Shown: in pieces, positions 3,887-19,913 of the stretch
Layout: every line of letters starts with the position of its first letter
How positions within the stretch are numbered: position 1 is the stretch's first letter
Assembly: GCA_016213895.1 (NCBI GenBank)
Contig: JACQZJ010000141.1
Location: 1 to 34,010, forward strand
Direction of reading: 5' to 3'
DNA length: 34,010 nt
Source: Planctomycetota bacterium
Lineage (GTDB): Bacteria; Planctomycetota; B15-G4; JADJEK01
The notes under the pieces: model-generated
Seen by the model: only the letters and a program-made list of their open reading frames with translations
Told to the model about the DNA's origin: nothing
Databases searched by the model: none
Program-made: the position numbers and the translations under genes

Positions 3887-4741
3887 TCACCAGAGCGAGC
3901 TCCCGGAAAGGAAGAGCGCCACGAGCAATGCATAGGCGTTGACGCGCACGAAGGCATGAAGGCACGCGTTCGCCGCGAAGTTCTCCCTGAGGAAGGGGAA
4001 CGCCCTGAAGAACAGCCAGGCCGAGGCCGCGAGGATCCCCACGTTCCAGGGCAGGTGGACCTTGCCGGTGACCGCCAGCAGTGGTCCGGTCAAGGCGAGC
4101 GCGACGATCCACATGCACGTGATGCGCCCCACCTGGGCGCGCGACAGAATCCGTGTCAACGAGGGCAGCCCGGCGCGCTCGTAGTCCGCGCCGTGGAGCA
4201 GCAGCAGGAGCCAGAAGTGCGGGATCTGCCAGATGAAGAAGAAGAAGGCCACGTCCAGGATGGCGCGGTCGGAAAGCAGGCCGCCGCCCGCGGCCCAGCC
4301 GATGAGCGGCGGCAGCGCGCCGACCAGTGCGCCGGGCACCACCGCGAGCGCGGTGAAGCGCTTGAGCAAGGCGTAGACGCCATTGTACCAGAGCACGGCG
4401 AGAGCGGCGAGGCCGAGGATGGTGAGGGTGTGGGCCTCGATGAAGGACAACACGGAGAAGGCCGCGCCCATGAAGAGCACGGCGATGAACAGCGCCCAAT
4501 CCGCGCCGATGCGCCCCGCGGGGATGGGACGCCGCGCAGTGCGCTGCATGAGCCGATCGACGCGCGCGTCCTGCACCTGGTTCAGCGCCGCAGAGCCGCA
4601 GGCGAGAAGGAAGACCCCGGCCATGGGCAGGAGCAGGCCCCAGGTGAACGCTCTCGTGAACAGCAGGTGGCCGGCCGCCACCGAGAGCGTCACGGCGATC
4701 GTGATCCGCACCTTGGTCAGGTCGAGAATGGCCGCCAGCAC
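3887..4741 (-). CDS. ctaB: Protoheme IX farnesyltransferase (heme O synthase)
   Basis: A 284-residue UbiA-family prenyltransferase that adds a farnesyl group to heme b to make heme O for heme-copper oxidases. It is an integral membrane protein with about nine hydrophobic segments. The family motif NQVQDARVDRLMQRT (near residues 54-68) supplies the Asp residues that bind Mg-diphosphate, and RRPIPAGRI follows directly, as in CtaB/CyoE. The second Asp-rich loop is represented by the ADYERAGLPSL region. The start is a GTG at 4741 with AGGAG about 11 bases upstream, 54 bases after the corrected end of ctaC. No ctaA (heme A synthase) is present in the window, so conversion to heme A would need a gene elsewhere. 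Confidence 0.93.
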   Translation of the reverse strand: MLAAILDLTKVRITIAVTLSVAAGHLLFTRAFTWGLLLPMAGVFLLACGSAALNQVQDARVDRLMQRTARRPIPAGRIGADWALFIAVLFMGAAFSVLSFIEAHTLTILGLAALAVLWYNGVYALLKRFTALAVVPGALVGALPPLIGWAAGGGLLSDRAILDVAFFFFIWQIPHFWLLLLLHGADYERAGLPSLTRILSRAQVGRITCMWIVALALTGPLLAVTGKVHLPWNVGILAASAWLFFRAFPFLRENFAANACLHAFVRVNAYALLVALFLSGSSLW

Positions 4742-4795
4742 CGTTGCTTCCGCTCCTTGCCGCGGCCGCTCCGTGCCGCCGCGGCGTGACTCTGT

Positions 4796-5802
4796 CTATC
4801 CGCCCACGCGACCGCCGTTGGCCGGGCTGTTTGCGCCGCCGGCGTCCTGGACGTACGCCCTCTTCGCCTGTTCAATGGGAATGGTCCGTCGCGGCTCCTG
4901 CTTCTCGCCCAGACGGAAGTCCAGGTTGAGCTGCTCGACCTCCGCGGCCGTGGCTTGCGGCCGGTCGCCTCCCTTGTAGAACGCCGCCACGTGATGCGCC
5001 AGCGCGAACTGCGCTTCCAGCCCTCGAGCTTGGTGAAGTCGCGCGCGTTCTCGACCAGACCGCCGAGCCCCTCGGGGCCGTGGCACGACACGCAGAACGT
5101 CTTGAAGAGCGCCGCGCCGTCCCGCTCCTTGATCTCCGCGGAATCCGGGTCCATGGCCTGAGCCATGACCACGGGCTTGTTGCGGTCCGAGACCTTCCTC
5201 CCCAGCCACGCCAGGTACTGCTCCGGCGAGAGCACGACCAGCTCGGTGATCATGCGCGAGTGGTCCTTGCCGCAGTACTCGGCGCAGAAGATGTGATACC
5301 TCCCCTCCTGCTCCGGCTGGAACCAGAGGTAGCTCTTCTTGCCGGGAACGCAGTCTTCCTTCACGCGGAAGGCCGGCAGATAGAGGCTGTGCACCACGTC
5401 GTCCGCGGGGGCGGTCATCTCCAGCTTGATCGGCCTGCCCACGGGCGCATACAGCCGGTCGGAGGTGATCCCCTGCTCCGGGTAGATGAAGGTCCAGAAC
5501 CAGCGCTGCCCCACGACCTCGACGACCTGCGCGTCCTCCGGCACGGCGCGCATGAGCTTGAAGCCTTCGTAGCCCTTGAAGAACATGAACAGCACGATCA
5601 GCGTGGGGACCACGATCCAGGTGACCTCGAGGGGAAGGCTTCCCTCGATCTGCACCGCCTCCGGGCGGCGCGCCCGCCGGTATCTGATCACGAAGAGCAC
5701 CATCACCGCGGTGATGCCGATCAGCAGGACGACGCAGATGCCGCCGATCCAGTAGAAGGCCGCGTCCACCTGTCTCGCGATTTCAGAAGCGCCGGAGTAC
5801 AT
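4796..5802 (-). CDS. ctaC: caa3 cytochrome c oxidase subunit II, frameshifted in the cytochrome c domain
   Basis: Two transmembrane helices (about residues 15-40 and 58-78) precede a CuA cupredoxin domain. Visible CuA ligands are H138 (VVHSLYLP), C173, E175, C177, H181 and M184 (FCAEYCGKDHSRM). A fused cytochrome c domain begins with CVSCH at 237-241. At about 5013, after the residues LEGWK, the frame breaks: the original frame runs on as Arg/Ser-rich nonsense to 4717, overlapping ctaB. The next frame instead reads FALAHHVAAFYKGGDRP and continues for about 70 plausible residues to a stop at 4796. Compared with ActE, some 25-30 residues, including the Met heme ligand, are missing at the break. 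This could be a real mutation, or a sequencing or assembly fault. Coordinates cover the joined gene. Confidence 0.8.
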
Positions 5803-5811
5803 GGCTCACGC

Positions 5812-6102
5812 TCACCGGTTCGCGTAGTCCACGAACGTCAATCCAATGTAGATGCCGTAGGTCGCCAGGAGCACGAGGATCATCACCGCGAAGATCGGCT
5901 TCTCGAAGCGCACGTGCATGAAGTAGAGCACGACCAGCCCGGCCTTGGCCGTGGCGATGAGCAGGGCCGCGAAGATGGCCAGGTGCTGCAGGTCGGTGTA
6001 CTTTGCGCTCACCGTGATTCCGGTCAGGCTGAGCAGCGCCACCCAGACCCAGACGTACAGCGAATCGGGGACAACGTGGCGTTCTTCCGTGCGGCTGTTC
6101 AT
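5812..6102 (-). CDS. ctaF: caa3-type cytochrome c oxidase subunit IV
   Basis: A 96-residue protein with three hydrophobic helices (about residues 15-33, 40-62 and 70-90). The second helix carries ATAKAGLVVLYFMHVRFE, the recognisable core of prokaryotic COX4/CtaF small subunits. Its position between the subunit III and II genes, with gaps of 7 and 9 bases, supports the call. The ATG at 6102 lacks a strong ribosome binding site, so translation is probably coupled to ctaE. The subunit is an accessory part of the oxidase with no redox centre. Confidence 0.9.
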   Translation of the reverse strand: MNSRTEERHVVPDSLYVWVWVALLSLTGITVSAKYTDLQHLAIFAALLIATAKAGLVVLYFMHVRFEKPIFAVMILVLLATYGIYIGLTFVDYANR

Positions 6103-6109
6103 GGCGCCA

Positions 6110-6761
6110 TCAGCTGATCAAGTAGAAGAGCGGGAAGAGGTAGATCCACACCAGGTCCACCAGGTGCCAGTAGAGGCCGGCGTTCTCCAGGAACACGCAG
6201 CGCTCCGGGTTGACCGCTCCCGTGCGCGCCCTGCTCGCGCCCCAGAGGATCAGCGGAATGCCCACCAGCACGTGCAGGGCATGCAGCCCGGTCATGGTGA
6301 AGTACAGTCCGAAGAAGATGATCTCTCCCTTGGTCTGCTCGAGGAGGAAGCCGGCGCCCGGATACACGCCGTGCGTGAATTTGCCGGCCCACTCGAAGGC
6401 CTTGATCGCCAGGAAAGCGCCGGCGCAGCCCACGGTGGCGAACAGCAGGCGCAGCGCCCGCACCTGGCGCGCGCGCCGCAGCGCCGCGATGGCGAGCGCC
6501 ATCGTCAGGCTGCTGGTCAGGAGGATGGCCGTGTTCACCGCGCCCACCGGGATGCTGAGCCGGGCGGAGCCCTGGCGGAACTGCCAGGTGAAGCCGTGCA
6601 GGTAGACGCCGTAGACGATGAAGAGCGCGCCGAAGAGCAGCACCTCGGTGAAGAGGAACAGCCACATGCCCATCTTCGCGGCCATCGGGTCGTAGCCGCC
6701 GGCGTGCGCCCCGCCCTCGGCGCCACCCGCGCCCGCCGCGCTCGTCCTGGCGGCGCCGGCG

Positions 6762-6769
<8 letters not shown>
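6110..6769 (-). CDS. ctaE: Cytochrome c oxidase subunit III
   Basis: A 219-residue membrane protein of the heme-copper oxidase subunit III family, in the short five-helix form common with caa3 oxidases. Recognisable segments are [19 protein letters not shown] near the N-terminus, an AFEW segment, and [18 protein letters not shown] followed by [19 protein letters not shown] at the C-terminus, where the Glu and His residues are typical. The start is a GTG at 6769, with GGGAG 7 bases upstream, overlapping the end of ctaD by 8 bases. The first 25 residues are Ala/Gly-rich. The subunit has no metal centre and stabilises subunit I. Confidence 0.93.
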
Positions 6770-8371
<1,602 letters not shown>

Positions 8372-8372
<1 letters not shown>

Positions 8373-9178
8373 CACGTCGCCTCCCGCCCGGCGGCCGGGC
8401 TCTTCCTGCGCAGGAGCAGGACTGCAAGGAACACTGCCACGATGAACAGCGTCACCGCGAGCACGATGCGGTTGACCTTGAAGACGTAGGTCTTCGCGTC
8501 CGAGTCGAAGGAGTAGCACAGGCGCTGCAGCTTCAGCATGAGGCGGCGCGGCGTGCCCGCGGCCGCGTCGATGAGCGCCATCTTCACGTCCGCCGGAAGC
8601 AAAGTCAGGCCGGGCAGGTAGCGCACGATCTTCCCCGCGGGCGAGAGGAAGATCACCGTTCCGGCGTGCACGAAGTCCTGCTTCTCGCGGCGGAAACGGA
8701 AGCCGGCCGCGTCGGTCAGCCGGCTGATGTTCTCCTCGCCGCCGGTGAGGAAACGCCAGCTCTCGGGCGGAATGCGCCGCTCCATGGAAGCCAGCAGGTT
8801 CGCCTTGCCGGTCTTCGCCAGCTCCGGCGTGTCGCTCGTGTCGAAGCTCACCGTGATCAGGTCGAAGTCAATGCCCGGCTCCACGTCCAGCTTGTCCACC
8901 GTGGCCGCCACCTCGCGCAAGAGCGGGCTGCAGATGTTCGGGCAGCGCAGGTAGACGAGCATGAGGATCGTGGGGCGCGTTATCAGAGACCCGAGCGAGA
9001 CGGTCTTGCCCTCCTCGTCCAGGAACGTGACATCGAGCGGCACCGACTCGCCGAGCTTCTCCTCGATGCCCGGCCTCTCGGCCTGCGCGTAGTCGGTCTT
9101 CGCGGAGTCCTGCGCGCTCGCGATCGCGGCCGACGCGAAGACAAGCAGCGCGGCCCGCAGTTCCTTGCACACGGCCAT
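8372..9178 (-). CDS. sco: SCO1/SenC copper chaperone for the CuA site
   Basis: A 268-residue protein with an N-terminal signal sequence (residues 1-22, cleaved near IASAQ), a thioredoxin-like SCO domain (about 35-205) and a C-terminal membrane helix (about 236-256) ending in Arg/Lys. The copper ligands of the family are present: a CxxxC pair in RCPNICS (C79, C83) and H171 in DFVHAG. The segment before the C-terminal helix (LMLKLQRLCYSFD) resembles that of SCO proteins in other act/caa3 clusters. It delivers copper to CuA of CtaC. The ATG at 9178 follows GAGGAG by 7 bases and lies 11 bases after actF; it shares its last base with ctaD. Confidence 0.93.
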
Positions 9179-9189
9179 TGCCCGGCTCC

Positions 9190-10410
9190 TCACAGATGAA
9201 AGGCGCACGACTTGCTCAAGAAAGGATCGCCCACCGCCATCGGCCGATGCTTCCCCAGGAAGCGCGCGACATGCAGCAGAAGCGCGCCCGCCAGAAAGAG
9301 CGGCGGTCCCAGCTCCTGCCAGCCCAGGCGCGGGCCATCCTCGTGCAGCTGCGGCATGATCAGCCAGTAGAGGTCCAGCAGCTCGCCGGCCAGGACGATG
9401 AGCGCGGTCACGACCAGCCGCCGCGGCGACCTCTTCGCGTCGCGGCTGAGCAGCAAGAAGAAGGGCAGCGCGAAACGCAGCGCGACCAGGAGGAGCGCCA
9501 CGGCCAGCCAGGCGCCGCCGCGGCGCGCGAAGTAGACCGTCTCCTCGGGCAGGTTGCCGTACCAGACCAGCATGAACTGGCTGAAGGCGATGTAGGCCCA
9601 GAAGCAGGTGAAAGCGAACAGCAGACCGCCGAGGCTGTAGAGGTGATCGTCGCTGACGATTCCCTGGCCGAGGAGGCCGCGGGCGCGCAGCCAGAGCACG
9701 GCCAGGGTGATGGCCGCGAGCGCGGCCAGGGCCATCCCCGCAAAGACGTACACGCCGTACATCGTGCTGTACCAGTGCGGGTCCTGGCTCATGAGCCAAT
9801 CGAACGAGGCGAAGGTCACGGTCAGAGCGAAGAGGATCAGGAAGGGCGCCGCGACGCGGCGCATCCGCGCGGTGCGCGCCGCGCCGCCGCCCGCGTCCTG
9901 CTTCAGGGACTGGCGCACGAAGAAGGCGGCGAACCCGCCCCAGCAGGCGAAGAAGAACAGCGCGCGGACCACGAAGAACGGCACGTTCAGGTACGGGGCC
10001 TTGCCCTGGAGGACGTGGTCATCCCGCACCAGGTCCGCGTTCGACCAGGGAAACGGGGCGCAGTGATCCGTGAAGAGCAAGAGCAGCAGCACCGGCGCGA
10101 AGAGGACCCCGAGCAGTCCGGCGGGCGCCGCGAGCGCCTCGGCCACGCGGCGGATGACGACCGACCAGACGGCGCGCGTGACGTGCTGCAGGGCCACGAA
10201 GAAGAGGCTGCCGAGCACGATCGCCCAGGCGAAGGAGAAGCCCCAGAGATAGGCAAAGGAGAAGCGCTCGAGCCCGCCCTCGCTGAGGAGCGTCGTGGCG
10301 CACAGTACTGCCCCGCAGAGGATCAGCGCCAGGGACGCCCGCGCCAGGCCGGCGCTCCGCAGCGGAGCGAGCGCCAGCAGCTCCGCGCCGCCGTCTCCGC
10401 CGCCGCTCAT
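9190..10410 (-). CDS. actF: Alternative complex III subunit F (quinone-binding membrane subunit)
   Basis: A 406-residue polytopic membrane protein with about ten hydrophobic segments, an NrfD/PsrC relative homologous to ActC. Family-typical stretches are FASFDWLMSQDPHWYSTMYG, LGGLLFAFTCFWAYIAFSQF and LVWYGNLPEET. In ACIII this subunit holds part of the membrane arm; a quinol site has been proposed in ActC and ActF. The ATG at 10410 overlaps the actE stop in an ATGA arrangement; the longer upstream frame is the shadow of actE. Confidence 0.92.
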   Translation of the reverse strand: MSGGGDGGAELLALAPLRSAGLARASLALILCGAVLCATTLLSEGGLERFSFAYLWGFSFAWAIVLGSLFFVALQHVTRAVWSVVIRRVAEALAAPAGLLGVLFAPVLLLLLFTDHCAPFPWSNADLVRDDHVLQGKAPYLNVPFFVVRALFFFACWGGFAAFFVRQSLKQDAGGGAARTARMRRVAAPFLILFALTVTFASFDWLMSQDPHWYSTMYGVYVFAGMALAALAAITLAVLWLRARGLLGQGIVSDDHLYSLGGLLFAFTCFWAYIAFSQFMLVWYGNLPEETVYFARRGGAWLAVALLLVALRFALPFFLLLSRDAKRSPRRLVVTALIVLAGELLDLYWLIMPQLHEDGPRLGWQELGPPLFLAGALLLHVARFLGKHRPMAVGDPFLSKSCAFHL

Positions 10411-11051
10411 TTCTCCAGGTCCTCCGCCTTCGGGTTCTGCGAGCGCTGCAGCGCGCGCACGTAGTGGACGATGGCCCACCTCTCCCGCGGCGAGAACTTG
10501 TCCGCATACGACGGCATCTTGTTCTGCCCCCGGCTGATGATGTGGAAGATCCTCCCGTCCTTGAAGGCGCGGGCCGAGTCCGTGTGCAGCGAGGGCGGCG
10601 CCGGGAAGCGCTCCGGGCCGATGATGGGCCCGTTGGCGTAGCCCTCCTTGCCGTGACAGGTCCAGCAGTAGTAGTTGAAGTGCTTCTCCCCTTCATCGAC
10701 CGCCGCCAGCGTGGCCGGAAGCGGATTCGCCAGGCTCTCCTCGGCGAGCTTCGCCGTGGCCTCGTCCTTGCCTTCCAGGTGGTACGGGTAGTAGTCCATG
10801 GGCATGGACCGCGCCGCCGGCGGCCTCTCGACGATGCGCGCCTCGCCCTCGAACCAGCCGTAGTACCCCTGCGCCTTGCCCTTGGGCTGCACGGCCATGT
10901 CGTTCAGGATGTCCAGGTAGGGCAGCGCCAGCACGCCGAGGGGAACGGCGAAGGCGGCCGCCACCACGGCGACGAGGAAGGCCTTGAACCAGGCCGGCGA
11001 GAAGCGCGGCGACCAGTTGCGCAGCCGGTTCTGCATGCTGCCCGGAGTCAT
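10407..11051 (-). CDS. actE: Alternative complex III subunit E (monoheme cytochrome c)
   Basis: A 214-residue membrane-anchored cytochrome c. A single hydrophobic segment (about residues 24-45) precedes the periplasmic domain, which has one heme-binding site, CWTCH at 129-133, and a Met ligand in NKMPSY at 179. The C-terminal helix ends RERWAIVHYVRALQ. In ACIII ActE relays electrons from the ActA/ActB side to the oxidase. The ATG at 11051 overlaps the actD stop by four bases (ATGA), as does its own stop with actF. I see no lipobox at the N-terminus, so it seems anchored by the helix here. Confidence 0.94.
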   Translation of the reverse strand: MTPGSMQNRLRNWSPRFSPAWFKAFLVAVVAAAFAVPLGVLALPYLDILNDMAVQPKGKAQGYYGWFEGEARIVERPPAARSMPMDYYPYHLEGKDEATAKLAEESLANPLPATLAAVDEGEKHFNYYCWTCHGKEGYANGPIIGPERFPAPPSLHTDSARAFKDGRIFHIISRGQNKMPSYADKFSPRERWAIVHYVRALQRSQNPKAEDLEK

Positions 11052-11611
11052 ATGAGCGATCCGTCCTCCTCCCGCTCGTACAACGGCCGCACCTCCCGGC
11101 AGCCAGAGCGCGCGAGCAGCGCCGCCGCCTCCTGCTCGGCGAAGAGGCGGTCCTCCTGGCGCAGCACCACGGCGAACCGATCGCTCGTCACCAAACGCAT
11201 GACGTCCGAGTCATGCAGCGGAGAATGCCAGCGGCCGAGCCGGCACAAGACGAGGACGCAGCACACGGTCGCGAGCGCGGAAAAGAGCACGAACAGCTCG
11301 AACACGATCGGCACGAAGGCCGGCCACGAATAGAGCGGCTTGCCGCCGATGCGCACCGGGTAGTCCACCGCGCTCATCCACCACTGCATGAGAAGCGCGA
11401 CGCCGGCGCCGGCGAAGCCCGCGGCCAGGCAGATCGCCGGGATCGGTGAGGCCTTGAGTCCCATGGCGCGGTCCAGGCCGTGCACCGGATAGGGCGTGTG
11501 GCAGTCCCATTCGCGATAGCCGGCGGCGCGCACCGCGCTCGCGGCGCGCAGCAGGGACTCCACGTCGTCGCACAGGCCCACCACGCCGGCCAGGTTCCGC
11601 CCCTCAGCCAT
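11048..11611 (-). CDS. actD: Alternative complex III subunit D (DUF3341)
   Basis: A 187-residue protein matching the DUF3341/ActD layout: a cytoplasmic start that reads like a predictive-sensor fold (GLCDDVESLLRAASAVRAAG), the conserved CHTPYPVHGLD segment, then two helices (about 55-78 and 98-125) separated by a GGKPLYSWPAFVPI loop. The GGKP...WPAF signature is typical of ActD. It has no cofactor motif and helps assemble the membrane arm. The ATG at 11611 overlaps actC by 8 bases. Confidence 0.94.
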   Translation of the reverse strand: MAEGRNLAGVVGLCDDVESLLRAASAVRAAGYREWDCHTPYPVHGLDRAMGLKASPIPAICLAAGFAGAGVALLMQWWMSAVDYPVRIGGKPLYSWPAFVPIVFELFVLFSALATVCCVLVLCRLGRWHSPLHDSDVMRLVTSDRFAVVLRQEDRLFAEQEAAALLARSGCREVRPLYEREEDGSLI

Positions 11612-13012
11612 GGCCGTCCCCTCCCGGCCGCGCTCCTTGCCGCGCCCGCGGCTGGCTGCCCGGCAGAATGGCCTTGGTCTCGGCCAGGGAAACCGCGGGC
11701 AGGAAGCGCGCGAAGAGGAGCATGAGCGTCAGGAAGACGCCGATGCTCCCAACGAACAGGCTGACGTCCACCCACGTCGGCGAGAACACGTCCCAGCTCG
11801 ACGGCAGGTAGTCGCGATGCAGGCTGGTCACCACGATCACGAAACGCTCGAACCACATGCCGACGTTGACCAGGATGACGACCGGATAGAGCAACAAGAC
11901 CGTGCGCCGCACCTTGCGGATCCACAGCACCTGCGGGATCACCACGTTGCACGCCACCATCGTCCAGTAGGCCCAGGCGTAATGCCCGAACGCGCGGTTC
12001 ACGAACACGTAGCGCTCGTACGCCGCCCCGCTGTACCAGGCGATGAACACCTCCGTGGCGTACGCGTAGCCCACCATCAGGGACGTGGCGATGATGATGC
12101 GGTTCATCACGTCCAGGTGGTCCTCGGTGACCACGTGCTCCAGGCGGAAGAACTTGCGCATGATGACGATCAGGGTGGCCACCATGGCGAAGCCCGAGAA
12201 GATGGCGCCCGCCACGAAGTAGGGCGGGAAGATCGTGGCATGCCAGCCCGGGATCACCGAGGTCGCGAAGTCGAACGACACGACGCTGTGCACGCTCAAG
12301 ACCAGCGGCGTGGACAGTCCGGCGAAGAGCAAGTAAGCCTTCTCGTAGTGGCTCCACGCCCGGTTCGAGCCCTGCCATCCCAGGCTGAGGATGCCGTAGA
12401 TCGTCCGGCGCAGGCCGTGGCGCGCGCGGTCCCGCACCGTTGCCAGGTCCGGCAGGAGCCCGGTGTACCAGAAGAGGAACGACACCGTGCCGTAGGTAGA
12501 GACGGCGAACACGTCCCAGAGCAGGGGAGAGCGGAAGTTCACCCAGATGCCGTTCGCGTTCGGCAGGGGCAGGAGCCAGTAGGCCAGCCAGGGGCGGCCG
12601 GTGTGCACCAGCGGGAACTGCAGGGCGCAGATCACGGCGAAGACGGTCATGGCCTCGGCGAAGCGCGCGATCGCGGTGCGCCAGCGCTGGCGCAGCAGGA
12701 AGAGGATCGCGCTGATGAGCGTGCCGGCGTGACCGATGCCGATCCAGAAGACGAAGTTGGTGATGTCCCAGGCCCAGCCGACCGGGTTGTTGTTGCCCCA
12801 GGCGCCGATGCCGGTGAAGACTGTATGCAGGAAGGCATAGACGAAAAGCGCCGCCAGCAACCCGGTGCACGAGATCGCGATCCACCAGCGCCGCGTGGGG
12901 AAGGACTCGAGCGGACGGTTGATGTCGTCCTCGAGCTTCCTGAAGTCGACCTCGCCGAGCACCAGGGGCCCGGCCTCGAGCGAGGACACCGCCACGACCG
13001 CGCTCTCCGGCG

Positions 13013-13016
<4 letters not shown>
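11604..13016 (-). CDS. actC: Alternative complex III subunit C (NrfD/PsrC-like quinol-oxidising subunit)
   Basis: A 470-residue membrane protein of the NrfD/PsrC family with about ten helices. The N-terminus (DFRKLEDDINRPLESFPTR) and the helix beginning GIGHAGTLISAILFLLRQRWR are typical of ActC. ActC carries the main quinol-binding site and donates electrons to the iron-sulfur centres of ActB. The ATG at 13016 overlaps the actB stop (ATGA); the 70 codons of open frame upstream are the actB shadow. Confidence 0.95.
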
Positions 13017-15934
<2,918 letters not shown>

Positions 15935-15959
15935 GGCTCGCTTCCGCTCCGGGCGCTCT

Positions 15960-16553
15960 TCATCGATGGCACGTCGAGCAATGAATGGGCGCTCGCGTCT
16001 TCTGCCACGGGGGGCTGCCCGCGGGCGGCGGCTCCATGTGGCAGTCCAGGCCCCATCTCATCTTGAGGGAGTACACGCGCTCGACGCGGTCCATGGTCTC
16101 CACCTTGCCGTGGCAGTCCACGCAGTCGAGCTTCGCTGCCGCCGTCAAGTGCCGGCTGTGGTCGAAGTAGACGAAGTCGGCCAGGTCGTAGACCTTCTCC
16201 CAAGGGATCGGCGTCTTCTCCTCCCAGTACTTCAAGAGCTTCTGGATGTTGGCTTTGACCGCGCCGCGCGCGTCCTTGGTCTGGATCTCCGTGTGGCACT
16301 TCATGCATGTGGAGGTCGGCGGGATGGTGGCGTGCGCCGACTGCTCGGCCCGCGAATGACAGTAAATGCACTCGATCTTGAACTGGCCGGCCATGATCGC
16401 ATGGGAAAACTCGATGGGCTGGGCGGGCTGATAGCCGATCTCCAGGTTGGCGGGCCAGAGCGCGTACGTGCCGAAGGAGACGCCGATCGTCAGGGACGAG
16501 ACGACCACCGCCGCGGCGATGTAGATGCGTCGCTCGAACTTCCTGGTGAACAT
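15960..16553 (-). CDS. actA: Alternative complex III subunit A (multiheme cytochrome c, one heme motif degenerate)
   Basis: A 197-residue cytochrome with one N-terminal membrane helix (about residues 9-33) and a periplasmic multiheme domain. Four full CxxCH motifs are seen: CIYCH 62-66, CMKCH 83-87, CVDCH 144-148 and CSTCH 192-196 at the extreme C-terminus. A fifth site reads GLDCH at 168-172; ActA is normally pentaheme and this site is usually CxxCH, so its first Cys is replaced by Gly. I placed the start at the ATG at 16553, giving MFTRKFERR; an in-frame TTG eight codons upstream is possible, and neither has a strong ribosome binding site. The 76-base gap to the radical SAM gene shows no obvious promoter. 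Confidence 0.93.
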   Translation of the reverse strand: MFTRKFERRIYIAAAVVVSSLTIGVSFGTYALWPANLEIGYQPAQPIEFSHAIMAGQFKIECIYCHSRAEQSAHATIPPTSTCMKCHTEIQTKDARGAVKANIQKLLKYWEEKTPIPWEKVYDLADFVYFDHSRHLTAAAKLDCVDCHGKVETMDRVERVYSLKMRWGLDCHMEPPPAGSPPWQKTRAPIHCSTCHR

Positions 16554-16629
16554 CGACTCGACACGCCGCCGGCACAACGTCCGCCGCGCACGCCCGGAGC
16601 GCGCGGCGGACCGGCGGTCCTTCCTTGCG

Positions 16630-18150
16630 TCAGGTGGCCGCCGCTTCCGCCTCCGCCTTCTCGTACTTGTCCGCGATCCTGCGCATGGTCTCCTTGCGGT
16701 AGAAGCACCACGAGCAGAACGGCACGGTCTTCAGCTCCTCGGTGTCCGGATCGAGGTAGGCGAACTCGACCGAGCAGCCCTCGAGGCGCGCCGATTCGAT
16801 GGAGTGCGGCTCCTCGAAGGGCAGGATCACCGCGAGCAGCGAGTCCTTGATCATCGTGTGGGCAAGAACCTGCTTCTTCAGGCTGCCGCCGCCGACCACG
16901 CCGGCCAGGATCTTGACCACGCCCCAGAACGGGCTGCCGCCGAAGATCTTCCGCAGGTCGAGCGCGCCGAGCAGCATGCCGCCGAACGTCTTCAGCACCA
17001 GCAGGCGGCCGCGCCAGCGCTGCAAAAAGCGTCCGGGATCGAGCCGATCCAGCGCCGGGTTGACCTTGCGCGCGCGCACCACGAAATCCTCGGCCAGCTC
17101 GTCGAGCGGGCGCTTCAAGTAGGCGCTCGGCGCGTGATAGCGCTCGCCGTCCGAGTAGAAGTAGGTGAACGACTCGCAGTTCGGATGCACGCCGCCGAAG
17201 CGCAGGCGGTGCTTGCCGAAGAACTTGTACGCCGGCTCCATCATGCCCGAGATGCCGGCCGGGATGAACTCGACCTTGTCGGGCATGGCCGCGGCGACGA
17301 TCTTCTCGGCGTCCTCGGGCGTGGTCATCTCGGCGCGCTCGTACTCCCCTTCCTTCCACATCTCGGTGAGCGGCAGGAAGTTGAAGCGCTTGATGATGGC
17401 CCGGTGCTGGTGCACGAAGGCGATCAGGTCTTTCATGTGCCGTTCGTTGAGCGAGCGCGCGACCGTGCACGCCACCGTGTGGCGCAGCTTGCTGTGCTTG
17501 GCGAGGTTCTTGAACGCCTCGAGCTTCTTCTCGTAGGCCGCGGCGCTGCCGCGCATGCGGCGGTAGATCTCCGGGTCGAGCCCGTCGAAGGCGATGAGGA
17601 GGTGCGTCTTGGTCTCGCACAGCCTCTTGCAGAACTCCTCGTCCGCGAGCTTCAGCACGTTGCTCGCCATGGTGAGCGGCAAGCCCAGGCGATCGGCCAT
17701 GGCGATGATCTCGAAGAGGTCCTTGCGCATGGTCGGCTCGCCGCCGAAGAGCTGGACCCGGGGCTTCTGCTTCCATGTCGCCAGCTTCTCGAAGATCTTC
17801 TCGAAGTAGGAGAGCGGCGGATGGAACTCGAAGCCCATCCCTGGGATGTTGGCGATGCAGATCGGGCAGTTCAGGTTGCAGCGGTTCGTGACGTCCAGGA
17901 AGATCAGGCGCGGGTGGTGGTCGATCGCGCAGTGGTCGCACTTCAGCGAGCAGGAGATCTTGGCGTCGGGATCGTAGTGGTAGATCTCCCGCTTGCGCCG
18001 CCACACCGCGGCGTCGTTGCTCACCAGGCCGTCGTTGTCGCCGCAGTCGGGGCAGTGCTTGCGCAGGAAGACCTTGCCGTCGAGGATGACGTGCTCGGCG
18101 GGAACGCGCTTCTCGCACCCGCTGCACACCCCGGTGTTGATGGCTGCCAT
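16630..18150 (-). CDS. Radical SAM protein of the Tes/MJ0619-like type
   Basis: A 506-residue protein. The N-terminus has two CxxC pairs (C9/C12 and C33/C36) around a short strand region, as in the rubredoxin-like part of Tes-type enzymes. A Cys group at 67, 71 and 74 (CSLKCDHC) precedes the radical SAM motif CNLNCPIC (C91, C95, C98) within FLDVTNRCNLNCPIC. GGEPT at 136-140 is the SAM-binding motif. The C-terminus has further Cys (ESFTYFYSD region; FCSWCFYRKE), possible auxiliary cluster ligands. Relatives include tetraether lipid synthase and MJ0619-like methylases; I infer the class, not the substrate. The ATG at 18150 has GGAGG 7 bases upstream. It lies 76 bases ahead of actA on the same strand and may head the respiratory transcript. 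Confidence 0.85.
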   Translation of the reverse strand: MAAINTGVCSGCEKRVPAEHVILDGKVFLRKHCPDCGDNDGLVSNDAAVWRRKREIYHYDPDAKISCSLKCDHCAIDHHPRLIFLDVTNRCNLNCPICIANIPGMGFEFHPPLSYFEKIFEKLATWKQKPRVQLFGGEPTMRKDLFEIIAMADRLGLPLTMASNVLKLADEEFCKRLCETKTHLLIAFDGLDPEIYRRMRGSAAAYEKKLEAFKNLAKHSKLRHTVACTVARSLNERHMKDLIAFVHQHRAIIKRFNFLPLTEMWKEGEYERAEMTTPEDAEKIVAAAMPDKVEFIPAGISGMMEPAYKFFGKHRLRFGGVHPNCESFTYFYSDGERYHAPSAYLKRPLDELAEDFVVRARKVNPALDRLDPGRFLQRWRGRLLVLKTFGGMLLGALDLRKIFGGSPFWGVVKILAGVVGGGSLKKQVLAHTMIKDSLLAVILPFEEPHSIESARLEGCSVEFAYLDPDTEELKTVPFCSWCFYRKETMRRIADKYEKAEAEAAAT

Positions 18151-18261
18151 GCTTGCGCCTCCAGACCGTCCGCCTCATGGACCGCGGCCGCCGGTCCCCG
18201 CCCGGCGAAGACCCGCTTCCCAGCGCCTATCTCACGGCGCTGAAACGCTTTGAATAGCACA

Positions 18262-18287
18262 ACCGCCCGGGGCGGTCAGGCGTTTTT
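18262..18287. terminator. Hairpin followed by a T-run (candidate terminator)
   Basis: ACCGCC at 18262-18267 pairs with GGCGGT at 18271-18276 around a 3-base loop, and five T follow at 18283-18287 on the + strand. An outer AAACGC/GCGTTT repeat brackets it. No + strand gene ends here, so a terminator role is doubtful; on the minus strand it could be part of the leader or promoter of the radical SAM gene. Confidence 0.25.
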
Positions 18288-18362
18288 CTGCCGGACGAAA
18301 GGCCCGCGGCCCCGACCCTGGCGCGAGACAGGCATCGTAGAGGCAGCCCCGCGCCGCGCAAC

Positions 18363-18383
18363 CCTCCCCGGGGGGCCGGGAGG
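18363..18383 (-). terminator. GC-rich hairpin 3' of the lipoprotein gene
   Basis: CCTCCCCGG at 18363-18371 pairs with CCGGGAGG at 18376-18383, with one bulged C and a GGGG loop. It lies about 235 bases after the lipoprotein stop and lacks a T-tract, so it may be only a structured 3' end. Confidence 0.2.
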
Positions 18384-18617
18384 CCGCTCGCCAGCCCCGC
18401 GTGCCCGCGGCGCAACGCCCCACGGGGGCCGAGCCGGCCCCTCCTGCCGGCCGCGTCGGCGGCTGCGCCGGCGACACCTTCAGTGTCAGCGTCTTCGAGA
18501 TCCCCGCCCGCGGTGCACGCTTCTCCGTGAGCTTCCGCACGCACCCCGCAGCCGGTGGCCGCGCGGCGCTCCGCCGCGGCGGCCTCCGTCACCCGCCTCA
18601 GACGCGCCCGCCCGAGA

Positions 18618-19913
18618 TCACGTTTCCGCCGTGGGGAAGGGAATGCGCCAGATCCCCTCCATGAAACCCCGGTTCGACACGAAGTAGATGTACTTGCCGT
18701 CCGGCGACACGATGGGGTAGTCGTCCTCGGAGCCATTCGTGGTGAGCTGCCGCAGGCCCGTGCCGTCCGCCCTGATGATCCAGACGTCGTAGTTCGCCAC
18801 GTCCCGGTTGTCCTTGCCCACGTCCGAGGCGAACACGAGGTGCTGGCCGTCCGGGCTCCAAGACGGGTTCTTCTTGCCGTCCTTGTTCACCGCCTCGGAC
18901 GTCAACTGCACCGGGTTCTGCCCGCCCGCGGGCACCACCCATAGCTGCTGATCCTCGCCGATGTAGGCGATGGACTCGCCGTTCCCGGACACGGCGGACA
19001 TGCTCCCCACGCGAAGCTGCGTCGGGTATTCGTTCACGCCGCCGATGGACCAGATCTGCCGCACGCCCTGCGCGCCGCCCTGGTAGCGCGGCAGGAAGGT
19101 GAAGGAGAGCAGCCCGTTGTTCGCCAGCGACGGCTGGTAGTTCGCCCCCTCGGCGGTTTGCCGGATGACGGCGATTCCCCCGGTCTTCTCGGTCGAGATC
19201 CGGAACAGGTCCGGCTTGTCGAACTGCATCCTGTTGGAGTTGAACACCAGGTGGCGGCCATCCGCGCTGCAGCAGGGATTCGCGTCGAGCCACTGGCCGC
19301 TCGTGACCTGCGTGATGCCTCCCCCGGTCACGCGCACCGACCGGATGTTGGCCATGATCTTCTCGCGCCCCTGTGCGTCCTTGATCTCCTCGGCCAGCGA
19401 GAAGTACATCGTCTGAGCGTCGGGCGCCATCGTCAGACCGAGAGCCGACTGTCCTTCGCCCAGGCGGACCACGCTCGACGCCGCCATCCCCTCCCGCTCG
19501 ATATCCTCGACCCAGGAGCGCACCCGCTTCGTTTCCAGCGCGTAGCCCTTCTCCGGCGACACCACCAGGACGTGGCGCGGGATCTCCTTCACGACCTCTG
19601 GCTCGAGAGTGACGTCCAGCGAGGTGCGCCCATCCTCGCCCCTGATGGACACCGTCTTGGCTTCGTGTCCCGCGAGCGAAAACTCGACGTTGTAGAGCGT
19701 CGGGCCATCCGCGGCCCTGTCACCGAACAGGAACGAGTAGGTGAACGGAGTCACGCCCACGCGGAAGTCACGCGGTCCATTTGCATTCGCCGTCACCTTC
19801 ACCGTGGCGCCGGTTGGGTGCGAGGTCAGACTGACCACCCTCGTGGTGGTGGTGCTGCACCCCGCGAAAAACAACATGGCCGCCGCGGCCGCAGACGCTC
19901 TCATCACCCTCAT
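18618..19913 (-). CDS. Lipoprotein with PEGA domain and TolB-like beta-propeller
   Basis: A 431-residue predicted lipoprotein. The N-terminus is hydrophobic and ends in a lipobox (FAGC, Cys19). Residues about 26-105 form a PEGA-like domain (SLTSHPTGATVKV...GVTPFTYSF). Residues about 150-430 contain PD40/WD40-like repeats as in TolB, for example NPSWSPDGQHLVFASD and DYPIVSPDGKYIYFVSNRG. Such propellers usually bind proteins or envelope polymers; the target is unknown. The ATG at 19913 has GGAAGGA 7 bases upstream, with a second in-frame ATG three codons on. It follows the beta-helix gene by about 100 bases, separated by a strong hairpin, so the two are probably separate units. Confidence 0.88.
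   Translation of the reverse strand: MRVMRASAAAAAMLFFAGCSTTTTRVVSLTSHPTGATVKVTANANGPRDFRVGVTPFTYSFLFGDRAADGPTLYNVEFSLAGHEAKTVSIRGEDGRTSLDVTLEPEVVKEIPRHVLVVSPEKGYALETKRVRSWVEDIEREGMAASSVVRLGEGQSALGLTMAPDAQTMYFSLAEEIKDAQGREKIMANIRSVRVTGGGITQVTSGQWLDANPCCSADGRHLVFNSNRMQFDKPDLFRISTEKTGGIAVIRQTAEGANYQPSLANNGLLSFTFLPRYQGGAQGVRQIWSIGGVNEYPTQLRVGSMSAVSGNGESIAYIGEDQQLWVVPAGGQNPVQLTSEAVNKDGKKNPSWSPDGQHLVFASDVGKDNRDVANYDVWIIRADGTGLRQLTTNGSEDDYPIVSPDGKYIYFVSNRGFMEGIWRIPFPTAET

Follow-up and report, generated by a model that had tools for sequence, protein, structure and literature searches.

The stretch of planctomycete DNA analysed here, 34,010 nucleotides long and referred to below as the window, carries a gene for a radical SAM protein resembling the archaeal tetraether synthase (Tes) directly ahead of the genes for an ACIII-caa3 respiratory supercomplex. 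Surveys list bacterial Tes homologues among the potential, unproven producers of membrane-spanning lipids. Two questions are raised by this locus: is the protein, which we call TesL, a Tes, and what ties it to the respiratory genes that follow it? A draft genome of 5.5 Mb (G000) includes the window as its contig C78, and the sister genome of the same genus (G001) includes contig DYIW01000121.1 from a metagenome assembly; a scan of genome contigs found this sister species alone. The respiratory link is found at the level of one genus; of wider interest is that TesL belongs to a Tes-like clade of its own with SufS-like and Cys/Sec lipoprotein partners, which are not visible from the window alone and were missed by the preliminary description of this DNA.

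The TesL gene and its cysteines

TesL and its predicted metal-binding residues are located as follows.

16630..18150, minus strand: TesL, Tes-fold radical SAM protein, 506 aa (open reading frame and translation, Pfam and NCBIfam, hmmsearch to 7TOL)
18040..18126, minus strand: four-Cys site (rubredoxin/zinc-ribbon), C9, C12, C33 and C36 (Pfam and alignment)
17929..17952, minus strand: N-terminal auxiliary cluster ligands C67, C71 and C74, equivalent to Tes C73, C77 and C80 (alignment)
17857..17880, minus strand: radical SAM motif CNLNCPIC, C91, C95 and C98 (translation and alignment)
16712..17178, minus strand: C-terminal auxiliary cluster ligands C325, C459 and C479, equivalent to Tes C338, C455 and C470 (alignment)

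The motifs first read in this protein (a four-Cys element, a CxxxCxxC group, CNLNCPIC and a C-terminal Cys) are all present in the 506-residue translation, with the spacing C9xxC12...C33xxC36, C67xxxC71xxC74, C91NLNC95PIC98, C325, C459 and C479. Pfam identifies Radical_SAM (6e-20) and Zn_ribbon_HMPTM (2e-11). The best match among solved structures is Tes (7TOL), and a full-length profile made from an alignment of 17 TesL (A1) matches it in hmmsearch at 222 bits (E=1e-64), profile positions 4-487 aligning to 7TOL residues 26-500 across all four domains. Each of the nine cluster Cys of Tes, three for the N-terminal, three for the radical SAM and three for the C-terminal cluster, is present in the window TesL. 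An AlphaFold2 model reached a mean pLDDT of only 51 (input: the window TesL, the ortholog of the sister species in two pieces, and the N-terminal portions of related phage proteins).

The TGA stop of the window TesL is its true terminus, as no homology continues beyond it; an internal UGA (Sec) was considered and rejected, all UGA found in TesL sitting at the C-terminal end. The ortholog of the sister species is 93% identical. It has an in-frame TAA at codon 267 (L023 14108-14110), which is either an error in a low-coverage assembly (the contig name gives 3.8x) or a true inactivation.

Distribution of TesL and its relationship to tetraether synthase

Five full-length TesL are carried by G000, namely the window gene and four others that are 38-49% identical to it. 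Among 392 sampled genomes of the phylum, close TesL (at least 40% identity) occur in six: the two of this genus, G023, G107, G151 and G283. A distant TesL (33% identity) is found in G066, and further members in G392 and G399. With five copies in G283 and seven in G151, the clade reaches up to 5-7 copies per genome and is found in a few Planctomycetota families. Twelve Cys are invariant across the 17 TesL of A1 (C9, C12, C33, C36, C67, C74, C91, C95, C98, C325, C459 and C479), and C71 is kept in 16, the G066 homolog having Phe. In both species, one TesL paralog of the genus has an aldehyde ferredoxin oxidoreductase gene behind it in the same orientation (L021 10140-11957, L025 3984-5801).

That the enzyme is of the tetraether synthase type, as had been proposed, holds in part. 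In NCBIfam as among structures the best match is Tes, not another radical SAM family, and TesL shares with archaeal Tes (GDGT-MAS; MJ0619; PDB 7TOL and 7TOM; NF045702) the four-domain length, the rubredoxin-like site and the cluster Cys. However, the window TesL scores 169 bits against NF045702, far under the cut-off of 450, and neither it nor any other TesL, including all five of G000, passes, whereas a true Tes from the same phylum (G045), serving as positive control, passes with 576 bits. The second-best NCBIfam match is TrsS (NF045646), at 142 bits against a cut-off of 490.

With residue numbering checked by aligning the Mj Tes sequence, Met439 of Tes corresponds to Leu443 of the window TesL and Tyr459 to Phe463; Leu occupies the first site in 16 of the 17 TesL and Phe the second in 13, while G045, which has phylum and fold in common with TesL, keeps both Tes residues. 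Tes His36 is replaced by Cys in 17 of 17, C9, C12 and C33 being kept, so that the rubredoxin site is not of the Tes type. In a tree with Mj Tes, the G045 Tes and planctomycete relatives of about 30% identity, the 17 TesL form one clade (support 100/100) that stands apart both from the grouping of Mj Tes with G045 and from those relatives.

Because the cut-off is missed, Met439 and Tyr459 are absent and the clade is its own, TesL is, as judged from sequence, a distant and separate cousin of archaeal tetraether synthase, not Tes; it differs also in being multi-copy and in a SufS-like fusion described below, and as a separate family the clade should not be counted as Tes. Met439 and Tyr459 are invariant among 1,000 archaeal Tes, yet the mutants M439A and Y459F stay active (PMC9433317), so the loss of these residues counts against membership in Tes and does not exclude a Tes-like reaction.

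Two other groups were considered as family members and rejected. The planctomycete relatives of about 30% identity belong to another clade and mostly lack the C-terminal cluster Cys (11 of 12 have Asp where Tes has Cys470). Radical SAM proteins on viral contigs (IMG/VR, L098-L149) are about 350 aa long without a Tes-like C-terminus; many of these phage contigs encode one such protein or two neighbouring ones, with a TesL-type N-terminal ribbon and CxxxCxxC core.

Recurrent partners of TesL

When the genes within 6 kb of TesL were compared across all loci, two families recurred across taxonomic families; in the window, neither of them adjoins TesL. The first is a class-V PLP enzyme that follows TesL in G000, G001, G151 and G399; in G023 and G107 the two form one protein, with the enzyme joined to the C-terminus of TesL. 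It matches TIGR01979 (SufS/CsdA cysteine desulfurases, Sec lyases) over its length, at 291 bits and thus under the cut-off of 475, and is distinguished by adjoining or being fused with TesL. Homologs of at least 47% identity occur in 7 of the 392 phylum genomes, namely the six with close TesL and G243.

The second is a lipoprotein of about 160-260 aa, encoded directly beside TesL in six genomes of three families (G023, G107, G151, G283, G392 and G399). Matches to its profile with E below 1e-27 are limited to the six genomes that have close TesL and to G165, which belongs to the family of G151; in 21 further genomes the matches are weak only. Like TesL it is multi-copy, with at least five copies in G000, four in G001, seven in G283 and eight in G151 (up to eight candidates being scored per genome), and no Pfam or NCBIfam model matches the read-through protein.

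Reading the lipoprotein genes with UGA open revealed an in-frame UGA in eight copies (G000:C78, G000:C198, G001:C15, G001:C79, G151:C5, G151:C684, G151:C769 and G165:C111), at one otherwise near-invariant Cys column within the motif [C/U]x[HK][YF]...HxG. Homology runs past the UGA in seven of the eight; the remaining copy, G151:C769, degenerates after it. Just downstream of the UGA, seven of the eight have a hairpin of 8-9 bp that is built on an ATA or GTA codon six or seven codons on; its loop is mostly GGC or GGT (CCACGTA-GGC-TACGTGG type). Both codons are rare (ATA is 1.7% of Ile codons and GTA 0.9% of Val codons in the window genes), and at this position neither occurs in any of 22 Cys copies, from which the hairpin is missing. 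One UGA copy lies on the same contig as the window, just outside it:

G000:C78, about 34484-35260 (L202 4485-5261), minus strand: likely Sec lipoprotein, with the UGA at C78 34798 and a SECIS-like hairpin behind it

As for the machinery for Sec, a tRNA-Sec whose anticodon is TCA is encoded in G000, G001, G151 and G283, and SelB exceeds its cut-off in these four only among ten genomes tested; in G023, G107, G392 and G399, which are without SelB, only Cys copies of the lipoprotein were seen. G283 has the machinery and Cys copies, and in G165 (61% complete) neither tRNA-Sec nor SelB was found, although a UGA copy is present. G000 has two tRNA-Sec matches over the gathering score and two SelB over the cut-off (C97, C214, C82).

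The pairing of UGA with Cys and the hairpin immediately downstream are as in known prokaryotic selenoprotein families, as these are presented in a 2026 review (PMC13188914), and a text search of that review returned no lipoprotein and no planctomycete selenoprotein. The lipoprotein beside TesL seems to represent a selenoprotein family not described before. A selenium theme is common to TesL and the radical SAM (seleno)protein TrsS; TesL differs in having no internal UGA, Sec sitting in the partner lipoprotein instead.

Proposed chemistry of TesL

In Tes, the substrate is bonded during the reaction, through a carbon, to a sulfide of the C-terminal cluster; attack of a second radical on the held chain then gives the C-C bond, and when SAM is limiting a sulfur-bearing lipid builds up (PMC9433317). 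The position of the SufS-like fusion, just after the C-terminal cluster of TesL, suggests that cluster sulfur is consumed or needs repair, and so points to C-S chemistry or to frequent rebuilding of the cluster. A testable idea follows from the fusion, namely that the carbon-sulfur intermediate of Tes has been turned into sulfur chemistry.

The reading that we put first, tentatively and knowing that it may well prove wrong, is that this separate multi-copy clade acts on a long aliphatic chain by radical chemistry, its C-terminal Fe-S cluster being served by the SufS-like enzyme. As in Tes, cleavage of SAM would give a 5'-deoxyadenosyl radical, which would take hydrogen from the chain of a membrane lipid or a lipoprotein anchor; the carbon radical would be trapped by one of the sulfides of the C-terminal cluster, to which the SufS-like enzyme would keep delivering sulfur, and the product would be a C-C or a C-S bond. 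The Cys/Sec lipoprotein could be acceptor, redox partner or modified product. In this genus, one TesL copy would have become the first gene of the ACIII-caa3 run and would therefore probably be made together with the respiratory supercomplex. It counts against this chain chemistry that a cytosolic TesL could encounter a lipoprotein destined for export only while the latter is still inside the cell, that TesL proteins miss the Tes cut-off, that G000 gives no match to DUF2229 (see below) and that neither recurrent partner adjoins TesL in the window.

Although we think it unlikely, TesL could instead mature the partner lipoproteins, much as radical SAM maturases modify peptides, by forming a bond at the conserved Cys/Sec or close to it prior to export, with the SufS-like enzyme giving S or Se. 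The two families are multi-copy in the same genomes (five TesL and at least five lipoproteins in G000), they adjoin in the six genomes listed above, and the lipoprotein has one near-invariant Cys/Sec column; against this, no peptide-maturase family matches TesL better than Tes does, the closest fold binds lipid, and several of the lipoproteins stand alone. Less probable again is a new three-part system in which TesL, the SufS-like enzyme and the exported lipoprotein, whose Cys/Sec would be catalytic or serve as a link, would together add sulfur or selenium to membrane lipid chains or lipoprotein anchors through C-S or C-Se bonds, one copy having been recruited to the ACIII-caa3 operon.

We consider it distinctly improbable that TesL is a working bacterial synthase of tetraether or membrane-spanning lipids, joining fatty-acyl tails and placed ahead of ACIII for membrane reasons. 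Full-length homology and the metal sites of Tes speak for such an enzyme, and Tes homologues of Planctomycetota have been proposed, without proof, as makers of these lipids (PMC11868695). The separateness of the clade and its score, set beside that of the true planctomycete Tes of G045, argue otherwise, and 5-7 paralogs with sulfur- and selenium-linked partners would be unexpected for a lipid coupler with a single reaction. Moreover, G000 has no match to DUF2229, which we take to be a marker domain of the Ger/PlsA ether-lipid enzymes.

Linkage of TesL to the ACIII-caa3 genes

TesL is the first gene of a tight run of 13 on the minus strand (TesL, actA-F, SCO, coxA, coxC, coxD, coxB and ctaB), in which actABCDEF and then the caa3 oxidase genes follow in order. 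The run and its flanking sequence comprise these features:

18151..18309, minus strand: conserved block upstream of TesL, likely the promoter or leader of the run, without a sigma-70 consensus match (alignment with the sister species)
16554..16629, minus strand: gap between TesL and actA, 76 bp; 38 bp in the sister species (promoter/terminator scan, alignment)
15960..16553, minus strand: actA, multihaem cytochrome with four CxxCH and a fifth motif GLDCH (Pfam)
13013..15934, minus strand: actB, molybdopterin-like and Fe-S subunit, lipobox-like GC behind a twin-Arg signal (Pfam/NCBIfam)
11604..13016, minus strand: actC, NrfD family (Pfam)
11048..11611, minus strand: actD (Pfam ActD, 2.5e-57)
10407..11036, minus strand: actE, monohaem cytochrome c (Pfam)
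9190..10410, minus strand: actF, no Pfam match (gene order and ActF matches in the ACIII loci of relatives)
8372..9178, minus strand: SCO1/SenC
6762..8372, minus strand: coxA
6110..6769, minus strand: coxC
5812..6102, minus strand: coxD, COX4_pro (COX4-like)
4717..5802, minus strand: coxB with cytochrome c domain, caa3 type
3887..4741, minus strand: ctaB-like UbiA prenyltransferase, last of the tight run

The preliminary description had counted 76 bases from TesL into actA and seen no promoter. The gap to the actA ATG at 16553 does measure 76 bp (later gaps are at most 25 bp), and neither a promoter-like site (sigma-70 scan) nor a minus-strand terminator-like site was found in 15500-19500. The gap does contain a GC-rich hairpin, but this lacks a T-run, its stability does not exceed that of shuffled sequences (z = -0.45), and the sister species does not have it in its gap of 38 bp. 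In G001 the TesL ortholog again stands directly ahead of actA despite different genes upstream, and about 160 bp ahead of TesL is kept between the two genomes. This conserved upstream block, the short promoterless gaps in two species and the change of upstream genes indicate that TesL probably heads the ACIII-caa3 transcript in its own genus.

Outside the genus the association is absent in the genomes sampled. ActB was not found in seven other TesL genomes (G023, G107, G151, G283, G392, G399 and G066); it is present in 8 of 12 other genomes of the order (G002, G003, G004, G005, G007, G009, G010 and G012), and no TesL occurs in the ACIII loci read from those eight. Since there are TesL genomes without ActB and ACIII loci without TesL, the link is real yet, as sampled, confined to the genus: of the respiratory link that had been suggested, a probable transcript head and adjacency to actA in both genomes of the genus stand, with nothing comparable elsewhere. 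TesL next to actA is a lineage-specific arrangement and not an obligate partnership. A literature search for ACIII together with radical SAM enzymes gave a single paper, whose abstract shows no link of this kind.

The same distribution makes it very doubtful that TesL works directly for ACIII-caa3, perhaps through a modification of the lipid anchor of ActB, the quinone or a haem, as its co-directional position, short gap and persistence in two species across the upstream rearrangement might otherwise suggest. Nor do we give much credence, and if anything less, to a chance insertion in which a common promoter is all that joins TesL to ACIII and the linkage is meaningless; restriction to one genus and two sampled genomes would fit this, but adjacency and the leader of about 160 bp have outlasted the rearrangement of the upstream genes. 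The pterin (class D) methylase that had been offered as an option, following the former annotation of MJ0619, is scarcely credible: the N-terminal Pfam domain is named for such proteins, but MJ0619, their founding member, was shown to be a tetraether synthase whose pocket suits lipid and not pterin (PMC9433317).

Two minor features of the run deserve mention. One haem motif of actA lacks its first Cys (GLDCH, where the sister species has CLKCH), which is either a real loss of Cys or a sequencing error. In coxB the C-terminal part seems to be out of frame, a possible frameshift, and the true end of the cytochrome c domain may lie in the overlapping open reading frame at 4796-5209.
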